DNA from: Methanoplanus sp. FWC-SCC4
GTDB lineage: Archaea; Halobacteriota; Methanomicrobia; Methanomicrobiales; Methanomicrobiaceae
Assembly (NCBI RefSeq): GCF_032878975.1
Contig: NZ_CP043875.1
Location: forward strand, 1,108,370 to 1,172,369
Length of the DNA stretch: 64,000 nucleotides
Reading direction: 5' to 3'
The notes beneath the pieces were generated by a model, which worked only from the letters and a program-made list of their open reading frames with translations, was not told the origin of the DNA and made no database searches. A program made the position numbers and the translations under genes. Shown here one piece after another: positions 13,139 through 34,300 of the stretch. Each line of letters begins with the position of its first letter. The stretch's first letter is position 1.

Positions 13139-14731
13139 TTATTCGAGAAGGATGTCAAGTGCTTCTTCTTTGTAGGATTCCATGATGTAAGGAATACCGG
13201 AGACTTCTGCCGACTCAGGCGTAAGTGCCATGAGATCGTTTCTTGATATTGAAGAGAGACTGAAGTTTCTGCTTCCGGCCATGATCTGCTGCATTCCTGT
13301 TCTGAAACGCTGTGTGTAGGTGTAAATGCCTATTGCACCAAGAGGAATATCTTTGATTCTCTCTCCGTATTTTTCCCTGAGCTCTTCATATGTTACAAAG
13401 ATCTCTTCAACAGTTGTTCCGTATCTTGAAACTGTCTTTGGAAGTTCACCTGCAGCAAGCCACTTCTGAATGTTCTTTCCAAGCATTCCCGGGATCATGA
13501 GACCACGACCCATGCATACAGCCTTAAAGTATGGAGCACCCATGCAAAGTGCCTTGAATGCATTTGCCTCATCCGCAAATCCGCCTGCAATTGCGAGGTC
13601 CGGAACACGCATTCCTTTCTTCTCAAGCTTTGTTGCAAAGTCATAAGCCATTGACTGAAGATAAAATGTAGGAATACCCCATTCGTTCATCATCGGCCAT
13701 GGACTCATACCTGTTCCTCCGGGTGCACCATCTATTGTAAGAAGGTCAATCTTTGCCTCAGAAGAGTAACGGATTGCCATTGCAAGCTCTTTCATTGAAT
13801 ATGCACCGGTCTTTAATGTGATACGCTTGTAGCCGATATCACGAAGGCGATCTACTTCCTCTAAGAATCCTTCCTTTGTAACAAAACCGAGACGTGAGTG
13901 GCGCTCAAATTCTTTTATTGCCCCTGCCTTAAATGCTTCCTGAACATCATGTCGGGTCGGGTCCGGGAATACAATATATCCACGGTTTTTTAGTTCAATT
14001 GCACGTTCAAGTGAGTTTACTTTAATCTCTCCGCCAATGCACTTTGCTCCCTGTCCCCATTTAAGTTCAAGGGTTTCGAGTTCATGCTTTGAAGATACAT
14101 ATTCAGCTGTGCCAAGGCGTGTGTCCTCGACATTCATCTGGACAAGAATCTCACCATATCCCTCATGGAATTTTCTATATATCTCGATCCTTCTGTCCAT
14201 CTCTGGTGATTCAACGACTTTGCCGTTTTTGTCAAGCTGAAGCTTTGGATCAACCCCACAGACATTTTCTCCACATACAAGTGTAATACCTGAAATTGCC
14301 GCACCGATTGCAAAGTGTTCCCAGTTAGCACGTGCAATTTCTGTTGAGCCAAGTGCACCTGTAAAGATTGGAACCTTCATTGGAACTTTTTTGTCCCATC
14401 CATATTCTGTTTCAGTGTCAACATCCTCAAAAACAGCAGTGTCAGGAGTACCTGTTACGCCTTTTAAAAGTCCTCTTGCACCGACTGCATATCCGTGAAT
14501 ATTGATATGTGAATAATCAATTGGATAGTCTTTGTCTGCACCTGCGGTTACTTCTCCAAAAGGACCGGGATATAATACTTCACGGCCTCTGAATGAAGAA
14601 AGCCAGATATCACAGTTCCCCTTACATCCGTCTAAACAGCGTGAACAAAGTCCGGACATAGGGACTACATTCCTTGAACGGTTTGATGTATGAACCGCCT
14701 CATTTGCATTTGGTCTCTTAAGATTTGCCAT
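13139..14731 (-). CDS. Archaeal glutamate synthase, FMN-binding subunit
   Basis: 530 residues matching the alpha-2/FMN domain of glutamate synthase as found free-standing in archaea. The N-terminus has four cysteines (CSRCLDGCKGNC) that probably bind an Fe-S cluster. Glutamate-synthase-type elements include GGTGMSPWPMMNEWGIP, GGFADEANAFKALCMGAPYF and LKTGAYSMKELAMAI. It makes glutamate from 2-oxoglutarate and ammonia released by the separate glutaminase subunit, whose gene starts at position 190. The ATG is preceded by GGAGGAG. A complete enzyme also needs the GXGXG-domain protein, which is not in the window. Confidence 0.9.
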   Translation of the reverse strand: MANLKRPNANEAVHTSNRSRNVVPMSGLCSRCLDGCKGNCDIWLSSFRGREVLYPGPFGEVTAGADKDYPIDYSHINIHGYAVGARGLLKGVTGTPDTAVFEDVDTETEYGWDKKVPMKVPIFTGALGSTEIARANWEHFAIGAAISGITLVCGENVCGVDPKLQLDKNGKVVESPEMDRRIEIYRKFHEGYGEILVQMNVEDTRLGTAEYVSSKHELETLELKWGQGAKCIGGEIKVNSLERAIELKNRGYIVFPDPTRHDVQEAFKAGAIKEFERHSRLGFVTKEGFLEEVDRLRDIGYKRITLKTGAYSMKELAMAIRYSSEAKIDLLTIDGAPGGTGMSPWPMMNEWGIPTFYLQSMAYDFATKLEKKGMRVPDLAIAGGFADEANAFKALCMGAPYFKAVCMGRGLMIPGMLGKNIQKWLAAGELPKTVSRYGTTVEEIFVTYEELREKYGERIKDIPLGAIGIYTYTQRFRTGMQQIMAGSRNFSLSSISRNDLMALTPESAEVSGIPYIMESYKEEALDILLE

Positions 14732-15165: not shown

Positions 15166-15816
15166 TCAGACAAATTTTATTCCAACATCCTTAAGCTTAT
15201 TATAGCGTGCAATATTCAGAACAAGAGGCGTTACACTCTCAACAATCGATGAAACAGCGAGCGGTCCCGCATCAAACGCTTTTAATTTTGAGACCTCATT
15301 AACAAGATCCATTACAATCTTTTTGGCCTCAGCGTCATCACTGCATACTGCAACGGAATAATCAAGTTCTGTATCAATTTCTTTCCACCGGTTGGCAGCT
15401 ATGTTATTAAAAGCCGAAACAACACGTGCACTTTCAGGAAGAAGTTTTTTTACTGCTAGTGCCGCCGATCCCTCCGGAGGCGGATCATGATAAAAGTGAT
15501 CAGACCTTCCGATAGGATTTATTGGAGTTATTACAATTTTATCTTCAAATCCTGTCAAGGTGGACAGCGTCGATTCAAGATGTTTGTAGTTTATCGACAA
15601 TACAATGATATCACCTGCATCAACTGCTTCCTGATTTGTAGCCCCGCAGCACAATGACTTGATGGAAACCTTACCCAGTTCCTCAATTGTACATTTACTT
15701 ATATCACATGCTTTGTCCTTATCTCTTGAACCAAGATATACCTCATGGACATGTGAAAGCCTGTGAGAAAGCCCCTGACCAATTTCCCCGGTCCCACCTA
15801 CAATCCCGATTTTCAT
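15166..15816 (-). CDS. npdG: F420H2:NADP oxidoreductase, paralogue 1
   Basis: 216 residues, the usual length of Fno/NpdG. The NADP-binding loop is GIVGGTGEIGQGL, followed by YLGSRDKDKA, where the Ser-Arg pair contacts the NADP phosphate. NPIGRSDHFYHDPPPEGSAA lies in the F420 side, and SAFNNIAANRW is conserved. The enzyme passes hydride between F420H2 and NADP+. It stands downstream of an alcohol dehydrogenase and close to a second npdG copy, so it probably links NADPH from alcohol oxidation to F420, or makes NADPH for biosynthesis. A TATA-like TTTATATAC lies about 30 bp upstream of the start. Confidence 0.93.
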   Translation of the reverse strand: MKIGIVGGTGEIGQGLSHRLSHVHEVYLGSRDKDKACDISKCTIEELGKVSIKSLCCGATNQEAVDAGDIIVLSINYKHLESTLSTLTGFEDKIVITPINPIGRSDHFYHDPPPEGSAALAVKKLLPESARVVSAFNNIAANRWKEIDTELDYSVAVCSDDAEAKKIVMDLVNEVSKLKAFDAGPLAVSSIVESVTPLVLNIARYNKLKDVGIKFV

Positions 15817-15979
15817 GAAGGTTCAATAAAGGCAATGTTGTATATAAATCTATGTTCAACAATGACAATTTATCACTTTTTGAATAAGATCCAACTTATA
15901 TATCCCTGATATTTAAAAAATACCCGCTTTTTGGAATATATTCTATCCAAAAAAATTTGAAAAATAAATGTAGCCTTAA

Positions 15980-17128
15980 CTACATCGCATTTTTATAAAT
16001 GGCAATTATCTCATCAACTTTGGCCTGCTTAGGGTTTGTCAAACCACAAACATCTTTTAAGGCATTCTCAGCAAGAACAGGGAAATCCTCTTCTTTTGCA
16101 CCAATTTCCTTCAGACCAGAAGGAATACCAATCTTAGCTGAAAGTTTTTTGATTTCTTCAATTGCAGCATCTGCCCCGGCTTTTGTATCCATTCCCGAGA
16201 CATCAACACCCATTGCTTTTGCTATCGGAACAAATTTTTCCGGAACAATCTCTTTATTGAAAGACTCTACGTGAGGCAGCAGGATTGCGTTGCAGACACC
16301 ATGTGGAAGATTGTAAAATCCACCAAGCTGGTGTGCCATTGCATGTACATAACCAAGACTTGCATTGTTAAATGCCACTCCGGCAAGATACTCGGCATAA
16401 GCCATCATCTCACGTGCCTCAATATCTTTTCCATTCTCAACTGCCTTTGGCAGATATTGTGTAATAAGCTCAATTGCCTTTATGGCTGCAGAATCGGTCA
16501 TCGGAGTTGAAATTGTTGAAACATAAGCCTCAACTGCATGTGTTAATGCATCCATACCGGTTGCGGCAGTAAGAGCCGGAGGCATGCTGATCATAAGTTC
16601 CGGATCATTTATCGCAACATCAGCAGTAAGTCTCCAGTCAACAAGTGCCATCTTAATATGACGGGAAGTGTCTGTAATTACAGCAAAACTTGTCATTTCA
16701 CTTGCAGTACCTGCTGTTGTGTTGACAGTGATTAACGGAGGCAGTGGTTTTAGATCATGGCCTGCACCCTCATAATCCTGAATCTTCCCCCCGTTTGTCG
16801 CAAGAATACCAATACCTTTTGCACAGTCCATCGGACTTCCACCACCAACCGCAATAATCATATCACAATTCTGGCTTTTGTACATATCAGCGCCTTTATG
16901 GACATTGATATCAGTCGGATTAGGTTCAGCTCCTGCATAAATTACAAAATTAACACCGCTTGATTTTAAGAGTTCTCCGATATCTTTTGCAAGTTCTTCT
17001 CCGTGTTTTGACACCCCGCTTACGATCAAAGCTTTTGTGCCACCAATCTGTTTAGCCTGTGTTCCAATATCTTTTACACAGCCTGCGCCCATTAAGGCGA
17101 CTTTCGGGTTATAAAAAGTGTATGTCAT
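15980..17128 (-). CDS. Iron-containing alcohol dehydrogenase
   Basis: 382 residues counted from the ATG at 17128, which has a GGGGGG ribosome-binding site; a GTG 18 bases upstream is also in frame but less likely. The group III iron-ADH signature is clear: GGGSPMDCAKGIG for NAD(P) binding, NDPELMISMPPALTAATGMD, DALTHAVEAY and AHQLGGFYNLPHGVCNA, giving the Asp and three His metal ligands. Possible substrates are ethanol, 2-propanol or other short alcohols. Some Methanomicrobiales grow on alcohols using NADP-dependent dehydrogenases with F420:NADP oxidoreductase; the two npdG genes on either side fit that scheme. Cofactor choice is inferred, not read. Confidence 0.9.
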   Translation of the reverse strand: MTYTFYNPKVALMGAGCVKDIGTQAKQIGGTKALIVSGVSKHGEELAKDIGELLKSSGVNFVIYAGAEPNPTDINVHKGADMYKSQNCDMIIAVGGGSPMDCAKGIGILATNGGKIQDYEGAGHDLKPLPPLITVNTTAGTASEMTSFAVITDTSRHIKMALVDWRLTADVAINDPELMISMPPALTAATGMDALTHAVEAYVSTISTPMTDSAAIKAIELITQYLPKAVENGKDIEAREMMAYAEYLAGVAFNNASLGYVHAMAHQLGGFYNLPHGVCNAILLPHVESFNKEIVPEKFVPIAKAMGVDVSGMDTKAGADAAIEEIKKLSAKIGIPSGLKEIGAKEEDFPVLAENALKDVCGLTNPKQAKVDEIIAIYKNAM

Positions 17129-17144
17129 TCTTTCCCCCCAAGAC

Positions 17145-17159
17145 ACACCTGTCAGGTGT
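17145..17159 (-). promoter_or_regulatory. Palindromic operator at the alcohol dehydrogenase promoter
   Basis: ACACCTG-T-CAGGTGT is a perfect 7-1-7 inverted repeat. On the minus strand a TATATATC box lies at about 17185-17192, so transcription should begin near 17160, and the palindrome covers the first transcribed bases. This position suits a repressor. Regulator unknown. Confidence 0.6.
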
Positions 17160-17418
17160 TCAGGTATCTAATACTAAAAAGTAAGATATATAGTTTACCC
17201 TCCAAAAAAAGGCAGCGAATATTTCGGGTATTTCTTAATATATATAATATGGATTATTCAAAAATTATTTATTGCCAATTTCTTATCAAAACTGCAAAGT
17301 ACATACAGTATATCTATAAAAATCATCATAAATTAAAATTTATCCATACCCGCGAGTGCTTTAAAATACAATAATTTTGAACAATAACACATATAACAAA
17401 AAATCAGGAATGGGGGTA

Positions 17419-18069
17419 TCAAAAGAATCTGACGCCAACATCCTTCATTTCGTTATATTTTGCAATATTTAAAATAAGGGGAGTAATACTCTCAACTATT
17501 GAGGACATCTGAAGAGGGCCTGCATCGACAGCATTTAAATTTGAAACTTCATTTACAAGCCCCATAACAATATTTTTGGCTTCTGCATCATCACTGCATA
17601 CAGCAACAGAATAATCAAGTTCGGTGTCAAGCTGTTTCCACCTGTTTGCTGCAATATTATTGAAAGCAGAAACTATCCGTGTACTCTCAGGCAGTAGTTC
17701 CTTTAGGGAAAGTGCCGCCGAACCTTCCTTTGGAGGATCATAATAAAAACAATCCGACTTTGAAATAGGATTTATCGGAGTGATAACAATCTTGTTTTCA
17801 AAACCGGTTAGAGAATCCAGGGTTGATTTCAGATGCCTGTAATTTATTGAAAGAACAATAACATCCCCAAAATCAACTGCTTCCTGATTTGTTGCACCTT
17901 TGCATTTTGCCTCTATTCCATTCTCATAAAGAGTTTTTACCGTACATTCACTCACAATACAGGCTTTCTCCTTATCCCTTGAGCCAATAAATATCTCATG
18001 ATTATGCGAAAGGCGATGGGCAAGACCCTGCCCGATATCCCCGGTGCCACCAACAATTCCGATTTTCAT
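17419..18069 (-). CDS. npdG: F420H2:NADP oxidoreductase, paralogue 2
   Basis: 216 residues, a close paralogue of the protein at 15166-15816. The NADP loop is GIVGGTGDIGQGLAHRLSHN and the SAFNNIAANRWKQLDTELDY segment is almost the same as in the other copy. Changes cluster in the first third (IFIGSRDKEKACIVSECT) and in the F420-side segment NPISKSDCFYYDPPKEGSAA, which could change partner or direction preference. It has its own upstream region with a TATTTATAATG element. The two copies flank the alcohol dehydrogenase and all read the same way, but 350-bp-class gaps suggest separate promoters. Confidence 0.93.
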   Translation of the reverse strand: MKIGIVGGTGDIGQGLAHRLSHNHEIFIGSRDKEKACIVSECTVKTLYENGIEAKCKGATNQEAVDFGDVIVLSINYRHLKSTLDSLTGFENKIVITPINPISKSDCFYYDPPKEGSAALSLKELLPESTRIVSAFNNIAANRWKQLDTELDYSVAVCSDDAEAKNIVMGLVNEVSNLNAVDAGPLQMSSIVESITPLILNIAKYNEMKDVGVRFF

Positions 18070-18233: not shown

Positions 18234-19859
18234 TTAAGTTTTGAATTTGTCCATTTCAGCTTTTAACGCCTTTGCAAGTTCACTGACTTCATGAACCGCA
18301 CTTCCGATCTCCTCAACAGATGCACTGGCCTCTTCTGCAAGTGCGGCAAGTTCTTCTGTCTCTTTTTGAGCCTTCTTGGTCATATCAGCTCCCTCTTCGG
18401 TGACTGAAACAACTGCATTTGCAATATTTGCCTGATTCTCTATTGCGTGAGTAATTTCACCAATATCATGGCTTACCTGTTCTGCATCCTTTATGATAAT
18501 ATTTAAAGCATCGATTGCAGTATTTACGCTCTTTACGCCTTCCATTATCTCAGTGTTTGCAGATTTAATTGCAGTTGCTGTCTTTTCGCTGCTTGACTGA
18601 ACTGTTGAGACCACTTTCTCAATATTTTCAGTTGCTTCACGGGCCTCTGCTGCAAGATTCTTAACTTCACCTGCCACAACTGCAAAGCCTCTTCCATGCT
18701 CACCTGCTCTTGCCGCCTCTATAGCAGCATTGAGTGCAAGAAGATTAATCTGACTGGTAATATCATTGATAAGTTTTACAACATTGTTTACTTCTTTTAT
18801 CTTCTCTGTGAGATCACTTATTTCAACAACCGATTTTTGGGCAATATCCTCAACAAGAACCATCTTTTTGTTGGCATCATCACCGGCCTTCTGGGCATCT
18901 TTTCCTATCTCCACAACATTATTTGCTGCATTGAAGACTTCCTGTGAAGTACCTGCAATTTCTTCATTGGATGCTGAAAGGTCTGCAATCTGATAATTTA
19001 TCTCTTCCATTTTCTTAAGAAGCTGCCCTGTCAAATCAGCAGTCTTCTGGCTGGACATCGCAACACCCTCTGCTGCACGCGAGACTTCATCAGTCCCTTT
19101 ACTTACCTCGTTTGAATTTATTGAAACCTGTTCGGAAATTGAATTTGCCTGATTCACCGCATTTGAAACCTGAACTCCGATGTTGTCGACAGCCTCTTCA
19201 AAATTTATAAAATCACCGGAAATTTTAATTTTTTTGTCGAACCCTGCACTAAAATCGCCCATGGCATATATTCCACACACCCTTATTGCTTCATTCATCG
19301 GAATTATAAACGCCTCTACCGCATGATTTACAGACTCCACAACTTCACTAAATGCCCCCCTGTGCTTTGAAACGTCACCACGGTAACCCAGATTTCCTAA
19401 AACCGCATTTTCACCCAGAGTTTCAACCTCATCAACAACACCCCGGATTGACTCCATCATTGCAATAAAGGCAGGGAGTATTTTATCATTTGCACTCCTT
19501 TTACCAGTTCCTCCACCAATGTTTTTGAAATCCTGAAGTTTTGAGAGATCACCATCTCCAATTTTTTCGGCAACATCCTGAAGATTCAGCAATCTGTCCT
19601 GAACAATATTGATAGATTCAGCGATTCTTAAGAAAATCCCTTCATATTTGCCATTTACACGCTCTGTATAATCGTTCTCTGCCATTAAGGAAAGAACCCT
19701 GTCACCCTCATGCAATGCCTCAAAGCCTTTGACAACTTCAGCAATCTCAACTATGATGCCACGCAATTCAGGATTAAAATCCTCAGGGTCCGGCCTTTTG
19801 ATAATGTCGCCACTGTTAATACTCTTGAGAATACTCTCGATATCTGATATGTCTTTCAT
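18234..19859 (-). CDS. Soluble methyl-accepting chemotaxis protein
   Basis: 541 residues without any membrane helix. The N-terminal 220 residues hold two to three HAMP-like repeats (for example [16 protein letters not shown] and [10 protein letters not shown]-like [17 protein letters not shown]). The C-terminal half is a long coiled coil with the universally conserved signalling tip [20 protein letters not shown] followed by [15 protein letters not shown]. It should control CheA from the cytoplasm, sensing an internal signal or redox state through the N-terminal part. The ATG is preceded by GGAGG. No other che genes are in the window. Confidence 0.93.
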
Positions 19860-20027: not shown

Positions 20028-20921
20028 TTAATTATTTATCTGTAAAAGAATATTTTCCATTACTTCATCGACATGCTTCCATGTCTCTTTATTCTGTTCT
20101 GTTCCGTCCCTGCGCATGATAAAAGGCTTCCCTTCGTCACCGGCTTTTCGCATATCCGGATCAATCGGTATTCTGCCAAGGTAAGGTACACTTAATTCAT
20201 CAGCAGCTTTCTTTCCACCACCGATTCCAAAAATATCGATGGTATCCCCACAATGCGGGCAGATAAGACCGGACATATTTTCAATAATTCCAAGGACCTT
20301 AAGACCAAGTTTCTCAATAAATTTAACAGATTTTGTTGAATCCAGAATTGCAACTTCCTGGGGCGTTGTAACGATAACGGCTCCGGCAATATTTGGTGCG
20401 AGCTGTGCAATTGAAAGTGCCTCGTCACCGGTTCCGGGGGGTAAATCAACTACAAGGTAATCAAGATCTCCCCAGTTGACATCTTCAAGGAACTGACGAA
20501 TAGCAGTATTCTTCATTGATCCACGCCAGATAATCGGACTGCTCTTGTCAGGGAGCAAAAATGCCATAGAAACAACGCCGAGTTTTCCTGTAAGCATTAC
20601 AGGCTCAATGTGTTTTCCATCGTATGAATTAAGTTTTTCGTCTTCAATTCCAAGCATTTTTGGGATATTTGGCCCGTGAATATCAGCATCTGCGATACCT
20701 GTCTTATATCCCTTATTGGAAAGTGCCATAGCAAGATTTACTGCAACTGTACTCTTACCTACACCACCCTTGCCGCTTAAAACAAGAATAACATTTTTTA
20801 CGTTCATCTCAACCTTTTGCTGCATGCCGGATGCTGCTTTCTGCGAATCATTGCATGAAGTTGCAGAAGCACATCCTTTGCAGTTTCCATCACATTCTGA
20901 GTTTGAATTGTTATCAGTCAT
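20028..20921 (-). CDS. apbC: Mrp/ApbC iron-sulfur cluster carrier ATPase
   Basis: 297 residues. A short Cys-rich N-terminus (CDGNCKGCASATSC) is followed by the deviant Walker A GKGGVGKST, then PPGTGDEALSIAQ and the cluster-bridging CxxC in LICPHCG. This is the Mrp/Nbp35 family of scaffold or carrier proteins that deliver [4Fe-4S] clusters to apoproteins. Methanogens depend heavily on such clusters. The gene is alone with 170 bp before the MCP gene downstream. Confidence 0.95.
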   Translation of the reverse strand: MTDNNSNSECDGNCKGCASATSCNDSQKAASGMQQKVEMNVKNVILVLSGKGGVGKSTVAVNLAMALSNKGYKTGIADADIHGPNIPKMLGIEDEKLNSYDGKHIEPVMLTGKLGVVSMAFLLPDKSSPIIWRGSMKNTAIRQFLEDVNWGDLDYLVVDLPPGTGDEALSIAQLAPNIAGAVIVTTPQEVAILDSTKSVKFIEKLGLKVLGIIENMSGLICPHCGDTIDIFGIGGGKKAADELSVPYLGRIPIDPDMRKAGDEGKPFIMRRDGTEQNKETWKHVDEVMENILLQINN

Positions 20922-34227: not shown

Positions 34228-34300
34228 TGCTGATATGGGGATTTGAACCCCAGTCGCCGGCGTGAAAGGCCGGCATGATTGGCCCCTACACTATATCAGC
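34228..34300 (-). tRNA. tRNA-Glu (anticodon TTC)
   Basis: 73 nt. The acceptor arms GCTGATA / TATCAGC pair perfectly with discriminator A. The anticodon arm is CCGGC-CTTTCAC-GCCGG, giving TTC. The T-arm is TGGGG-TTCAAAT-CCCCA. CCA is not encoded and no intron is present. A TATA-like AATATATACA lies about 20 bp upstream on the minus strand. Confidence 0.95.

Follow-up and report, generated by a model that had tools for sequence, protein, structure and literature searches.

Methanogens that use alcohols reportedly possess an NADP-dependent alcohol dehydrogenase (ADH) and an F420-dependent NADP reductase, the two enzymes named in the title of Berk and Thauer's paper of 1997. In this work we analysed a stretch of 64,000 nucleotides from Methanoplanus sp. 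FWC-SCC4 (contig NZ_CP043875.1, positions 1,108,370 to 1,172,369; as a whole, the window), in which a gene for an iron-type ADH is enclosed by two copies of npdG, the gene of F420:NADP oxidoreductase. The predicted route is the same as in the scheme of Berk and Thauer, that is, an NADP-linked alcohol oxidation with NpdG passing the electrons to F420, a likeness drawn at the level of the scheme and not of the sequences. What differs here is the linkage of the genes, the duplication of npdG around ADH and the presence, elsewhere in the genome, of a relative of the aldehyde-oxidising complex Wor-Bfu. The other systems that come close are those of Methanofollis and of Acetomicrobium mobile. According to the excerpts available of a 2020 review (PubMed Central, PMC7374477), Methanofollis ethanolicus grows on ethanol plus CO2, and iron ADHs and aldehyde dehydrogenases are listed for it; in the same excerpts, ethanol is used by one of three strains including Methanogenium organophilum, and iron ADHs proposed for secondary alcohols are described only bioinformatically. 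The Methanofollis clusters of ADH, npdG, NuoEFG and aldehyde:ferredoxin oxidoreductase (AOR) genes found in this analysis share with the present system an orthologous ADH and a homologous aldehyde complex. However, in Methanofollis these genes are together and the npdGs come from other parts of the NpdG tree, whereas the window genome has them at two separate loci. As for Wor-Bfu (BfuABCSL) of A. mobile, it is an electron-bifurcating tungsten aldehyde oxidoreductase, which oxidises aldehydes and jointly reduces NAD and ferredoxin (PMC9304861, excerpts).

The locus is probably the alcohol-oxidising branch of a CO2-reducing methanogen, with ethanol as the most likely substrate and with NADP, NpdG and F420 as the successive carriers. 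In the mechanism that we propose, NADP would be the cofactor with which ADH oxidises a primary alcohol, probably ethanol; the hydride of NADPH would then be moved to F420 by NpdG, and the resulting F420H2 would feed CO2 reduction and methanogenesis. For the aldehyde, the unlinked relative of Wor-Bfu would carry out the oxidation to the acid (acetate in the case of ethanol), with ferredoxin and NAD(P) as electron acceptors. Regarding the origin of the locus, the single housekeeping npdG of the family would have been duplicated in place, an ADH of bacterial affinity would have come between the copies, and the two NpdG proteins would differ at most in dose or timing.

An iron-type ADH gene between two npdG copies

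The genome that carries the locus is a single contig of 2.31 Mb and belongs to the Methanomicrobiaceae, a family in which G107, matched to Methanogenium marinum, is also placed. All three genes lie on the minus strand in the arrangement described by the sequence-only reading, and their family profiles are unambiguous:

15166..15816, minus strand: npdG1, F420:NADP oxidoreductase of 216 amino acids (TIGR01915, 205.2 bits against a curated cut-off of 149.8; 75% identity to npdG2)
15980..17128, minus strand: iron-type ADH of 382 amino acids, likely ATG start at 17128 (PF00465 and PF25137; 78-81% identity to the Methanogenium orthologues)
17015..17017, minus strand: codon of Gly38 (motif LIVSG), the cofactor-specificity position of ADH (alignment and the rule in the excerpts of PMC5125639)
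17419..18069, minus strand: npdG2, F420:NADP oxidoreductase of 216 amino acids (TIGR01915, 217 bits; best PDB match 1JAX, Fno)

The order of transcription is a chemotaxis-type gene, npdG2, ADH and npdG1. Given the intergenic gaps of 290 bp (npdG2-ADH) and 163 bp (ADH-npdG1), the last three appear to be separate transcription units rather than an operon.

The ADH matched the profiles of the iron-ADH domain (PF00465, 162.8 bits) and of the C-terminal domain (PF25137, 252.2 bits). Its metal ligands, assigned by motif and spacing, are D193, H197, H262 and H276, and the pattern given for iron ADHs in the excerpts of PMC12821551 is one Asp and three His. Two further proteins of the iron-ADH family were found in the genome, and for one of them a stretch best matches an ErcA-type model, below the cut-off of that model. 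The closest solved structure by sequence is PDB 8ZRL (469 bits), which we take to be an NAD-dependent methanol dehydrogenase of the Bacillus methanolicus type; it carries Asp at the cofactor position, whereas the window ADH carries Gly. Indeed, Gly38 aligns with Asp in the four closest solved enzymes. The site of an Asp-to-Gly change described in AdhE is presumably the same residue. AdhE with this change gained NADPH activity (PMC6370804, excerpts), and in the available part of an iron-ADH survey this position is the main determinant of coenzyme preference, Gly standing for NADP and Asp for NAD (PMC5125639). The presence of Gly38 instead of Asp thus predicts that the ADH uses NADP, the partner of NpdG.

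The same residue sets the archaeal enzymes apart from their bacterial neighbours. All 22 Methanomicrobiales ADHs found have Gly at the cofactor position, whereas of the 78 bacterial rows closest to them (drawn from the best 80 loci among the matches listed) 76 have Asp, the exceptions being L097, with Gly, and L096, with Asn. In the same alignment, 27 distant rows comprise 19 Asp, seven Gly and one gap. Orthologues of the window ADH were found in Methanogenium as five intact copies and in Methanofollis as 16 copies in 9 of 12 genomes, the latter with 69-74% identity. In the ADH tree, the three genera form one group of 22 (98 in the Shimodaira-Hasegawa-like approximate likelihood-ratio test, SH-aLRT), in which the window sequence is placed beside Methanogenium (99); the neighbouring group is made up of the 78 bacterial rows, including Peptococcaceae and relatives. 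A transfer of the ADH from bacteria is likely, under a root placed by midpoint only. In one genome, G131 (C6:37160-38280; L050 plus flank), the ADH is present as two overlapping pieces, one of them with an internal TAA, the mark of a disrupted gene or of an error in assembly.

Origin of the npdG pair and its setting in related genomes

Both NpdG proteins match TIGR01915 over their full length, and they are the only two copies found genome-wide, both at the ADH locus. Between the two copies, 55 of 216 residues are different, and the nonsynonymous (dN) and synonymous (dS) divergences are 0.17 and 1.87, values which indicate that no recent duplication is involved and that purifying selection acts on the pair. 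The two copies group as sisters in a tree of 47 NpdG proteins (94/83, ultrafast bootstrap/SH-aLRT), with two relatives from genus g3 as their neighbours. This sister position points to a local duplication of npdG.

For the synteny comparison, ten regions around npdG (L155-L164) were taken from nine genomes belonging to the family of the window genome. Five of them (L155, L156, L158, L159 and L160) have a single npdG whose immediate neighbours are a glutamate-synthase-like gene on one side and an Mrp-like gene on the other; in L163 there are two intervening genes on the side of the Mrp-like gene, and in L157, L161, L162 and L164 the surroundings diverge more from this arrangement. ADH was beside npdG in none of the ten. 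The window version of the conserved slot contains npdG1, ADH, npdG2 and the chemotaxis gene, the last of which is listed here with the two borders:

13139..14731, minus strand: glutamate-synthase-like gene that bounds the conserved slot on one side (PF01645; synteny)
18234..19859, minus strand: chemotaxis-type protein of the methyl-accepting kind, a further occupant of the ancestral npdG slot (PF00015, HAMP_2)
20028..20921, minus strand: Mrp/NBP35-like ATPase, the other border of the slot (synteny)

The name Mrp/NBP35-like for the product of 20028..20921 is our own attribution from its sequence. Among the loci compared, a chemotaxis-type protein (HAMP_2 plus methyl-accepting signalling domains) is in the npdG slot of this genome only; it could be either an alcohol reporter or unrelated. 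Elsewhere in the window, the sole Rfam match at gathering cut-offs is one tRNA gene (34228-34300).

Regarding function, Ser31, Arg32, Lys36 and Ile135 (numbering of Archaeoglobus fulgidus Fno) are kept in both NpdG copies. The first three are, we assume, NADP-binding residues in the A. fulgidus enzyme. Ile135 is given as a cofactor-related residue in the available part of PMC5614548. Among the positions at least 90% conserved in 44 relatives, only two are altered, both in NpdG1 (A17S and G51S). From family membership, hydride transfer between NADPH and F420 is predicted for both proteins. In the order, npdG was detected at an E-value of 1e-20 in 142 of 150 genomes, as one match in 117 and as two or more in 25. 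Five other ADH-positive genomes (G009, G031, G039, G049 and G079) have a single npdG at this threshold, so that one NpdG enzyme seems to be enough for ADH-positive genomes; G107, whose genome is 81% complete, had none at the threshold used, and G051 has npdG only as two pieces at contig ends. The simplest reason for having two NpdG proteins would be an extra dose or a separate timing.

Proximity of ADH and npdG is found in two of the three genera. In Methanofollis, npdG lies within 1.3 kb of ADH in 16 of the 16 copies found; for 14 of them the gap measures 146-1215 bp (gene content was checked in some of the gaps), and for two copies npdG is known only as pieces at a contig end. In the NpdG tree, 12 of the Methanofollis ADH-linked npdGs and one from a Methanogenium genome form a long branch, with that of G009 apart, while the remaining ADH-linked ones lie outside the tree. 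These npdGs are not orthologous to the window pair, and for this reason the link between ADH and npdG would either have arisen more than once or have persisted through a replacement of npdG. An npdG of this long-branch type is located in G075 (Methanogenium) at L161:7121-7768, and in G031, of the same genus, the npdG of L010 groups with genus g6.

The companion aldehyde cluster and the alternative explanations

A cluster of NuoE, NuoF, NuoG, ferredoxin and AOR genes is present at G000:C1:1331272-1336734 (L173:4273-9735), about 206 kb from the ADH and outside the window. It is 58-71% identical to the Methanofollis cluster (the NuoE frame used is possibly short at its start), and it brings together the make-up of Wor-Bfu, namely NuoE, NuoF, a short NuoG, ferredoxin and AOR. 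Each of the five subunits has as its best PDB match a different chain (A-E) of one complex, 9MQX, which we take to be the A. mobile enzyme. The five-subunit make-up is thus shared with Wor-Bfu; in contrast, the relative described here is archaeal, and its cofactor and its bifurcation are putative. A possible nucleotide switch in NuoF (GES for GEE) was dropped as a candidate, as GES is also present in the solved relatives 9MQX_B and 8A6T_B.

The Methanofollis ADH clusters compared contain NuoE-, NuoF- and NuoG-like genes, ferredoxin and AOR in varying sets, and the ADH locus of G009 has no NuoF-like gene. With the best eight candidates scored per genome, 13 of the 15 genomes that carry an intact ADH gave a NuoF relative of at least 67% identity, against none of the 134 that lack ADH; G131, fragmentary in both, was left out. 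The association has a Fisher p of 6e-17, a value that overstates independence because the trait occurs in three genera only. As for the substrate, no Adf-type secondary alcohol dehydrogenase was found in the genome, where the sole PF00296 match at an E-value of 0.001 is Mer. Since Mer is the only luciferase-like F420 protein found, 2-propanol would be a less likely substrate than ethanol.

Several observations weigh against an ethanol-oxidising module linked to F420. None of the five Methanogenium ADH loci compared has npdG, though their ADHs are the closest to that of the window, and the Wor-Bfu relative is unlinked to ADH in the window genome. Two ADH-positive genomes, G009 and G049, have no NuoF relative, and both the number of candidates scored and the restriction to three genera temper the co-occurrence. 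Gly at the cofactor position also appears in the seven distant rows mentioned above, and in some enzymes it permits NAD as well (PMC5125639, excerpts). Finally, the alcohol-forming direction is also compatible with the sequence.

This last possibility, in which alcohols would be formed from acids and aldehydes, either to dispose of electrons or to detoxify, has a parallel in Clostridium autoethanogenum, where AOR starts ethanol formation (PMC12727526, excerpts). The growth of M. ethanolicus on ethanol plus CO2 speaks against it. A CO2-reducing methanogen, moreover, has a better electron sink than alcohol formation, and we consider it very unlikely that the module runs backwards. It could also be argued that the genes are chance neighbours, the ADH having inserted fortuitously where npdG had been duplicated and working with another partner, as the Methanogenium orthologues away from npdG and the layout of the window genes, unlike that of an operon, would allow. 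Such an accident is quite unlikely in view of the NADP-type residue of the ADH, of the finding of just two npdG in 2.31 Mb, and of the similar setting of all 16 Methanofollis copies found, whose npdGs branch elsewhere in the tree.

The sequence-only reading had proposed an inducible module, oxidising or forming alcohols, in which the two NpdG enzymes work in different directions or with different partners. Its inducibility is at present a conjecture. The link from NADPH to F420 in that proposal agrees with Gly38, with the proximity of npdG in two of three genera and with the co-occurrence of Wor-Bfu relatives, but the division of labour between the NpdG proteins finds little room in these data. 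In its specialised form, one NpdG would make F420H2 from alcohol-derived NADPH and the other NADPH for biosynthesis; two diverged copies have indeed been retained, and the gaps between the genes could hold separate promoters. The copies are, however, sister duplicates, and the residue comparison gave no difference at the cofactor positions checked, A17S and G51S of NpdG1 being the only departures from conserved positions. In addition, a single npdG is present in five ADH-positive genomes, and the NpdG/Fno enzyme is reversible (PMC5614548, excerpts), so a pair specialised by direction is unlikely.

The ADH leader and the meaning of the locus

The region upstream of the ADH start contains the following elements:

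17134..17139, minus strand: G-run, likely Shine-Dalgarno motif upstream of the ADH start (sequence)
17145..17159, minus strand: 15-bp palindrome or leader hairpin of the ADH transcript (sequence and leader comparison)
17186..17192, minus strand: TATATAT, likely TATA box of ADH (position -64 to -58)

The palindrome, ACACCTGTCAGGTGT, has 7-bp arms and a 1-bp spacer, and a longer GTG frame of the ADH, to 17146, overlaps it. No other exact copy is present in the genome, where 14 more sites match it with two mismatches. Palindromes with arms of at least 7 bp appeared in 2% of dinucleotide shuffles of the 100-bp leader, and window-wide there were 34 centres against 16-34 in five shuffles, no clear excess. 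The palindrome alone is therefore weak evidence, and a position common to the orthologues is stronger. As it begins about 31 nt past the centre of the TATA-like box, the palindrome would lie just inside the ADH transcript. All 22 ADH leaders allow a hairpin to be drawn, and its start lies 23-33 nt (27-33 nt for 20 leaders) past the centre of the best TATA-like box; in the window leader the hairpin selected by the program overlaps the palindrome, is longer and starts at 23 nt, and in one Methanofollis leader the start is at 25. Because the program selects the best available stem, the presence of a hairpin by itself proves little.

Folding of the ADH leaders compared with shuffles gave a mean z of -2.21, with 12 of 22 below -2. 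The controls, restricted to longer, clustered genes with a Shine-Dalgarno-like motif, gave -0.13 (9% below -2) for 44 other leaders from Methanofollis loci and -0.11 (4% below -2) for 83 leaders from the window and other family loci. The window leader itself, with a z of +0.20, is no stabler than its own shuffles, which counts against an RNA stem, and RNAalifold on a sequence alignment of the 22 leaders found no consensus structure. On the other hand, arm sequence and spacing vary between and within genera while the arms still pair, as suits an RNA stem: in the outer six pairs, 113 of 132 cells are Watson-Crick, 15 G-U and four mismatched, in a hand alignment that leans towards pairing, as its arm ends were picked for pairing and several rows are close relatives. 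GGCAC-N7-GTGCC is common to four of five Methanogenium leaders, and for several Methanofollis leaders the prediction includes an outer stem that takes up the ribosome-binding site.

The element had been read, from the sequence alone, as a palindromic operator at the transcription start. The palindrome is confirmed, with a predicted place just inside the transcript; the operator role fits less well, as conserved arms and spacing were sought in the orthologous leaders and both vary. A DNA operator for an ADH repressor is a real but less probable candidate: it would account for the perfect symmetry in the window and for a site just downstream of the predicted start, it agrees with the lack of structure in the standard-alignment RNA test, and in Methanogenium a TetR-type gene stands divergent to ADH. 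Nevertheless, the arms differ with pairing retained, including G-U pairs, and the window genome gave no match to that TetR at an E-value of 1e-12, while the gene occurs in ADH-less genomes, so it was rejected as a dedicated regulator, the only regulator for which a search was made. An RNA structure would suit the leader at least as well, and we lean towards it. Relatives of the Methanogenium TetR-type gene (L152:6531-7232) in ADH-less genomes of the order include those of two Methanofollis genomes, G062 (82% identity) and G027 (59%).

The enzymes themselves are of known kinds, and their neighbourhood is real and sensible. Among the matches listed in a search of open-licence articles in PubMed Central, there was no recognised account of Wor-Bfu with ADH and npdG in methanogens, which is weak evidence of novelty. 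As far as searched, the new elements would be the in-place duplication of npdG around ADH, the Asp-to-Gly pattern, the tie with Wor-Bfu and the possible leader hairpin. Tentatively, and with more doubt than conviction, one may picture a complete, H2-independent ethanol module in three genera of methanogens. In it, a bacterial ADH made NADP-type by an Asp-to-Gly change would feed F420 through NpdG, and a bifurcating tungsten AOR would yield reduced ferredoxin and NAD(P)H, so that both carriers for CO2 reduction would come directly from ethanol; a 5' hairpin of the ADH mRNA, predicted over the ribosome site in several Methanofollis, may control translation.

The electron route from alcohol to methane in the few ethanol-using methanogens is known in outline for NADPH and F420. 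The present analysis names a testable set of genes for it (ADH, NpdG and the Wor-Bfu relative), together with a cofactor switch residue and the genomes for which growth on ethanol is expected. Were the aldehyde step a bifurcating one, both reduced ferredoxin and F420H2 would come from ethanol, and this would alter the energy balance of alcohol-driven methanogenesis.

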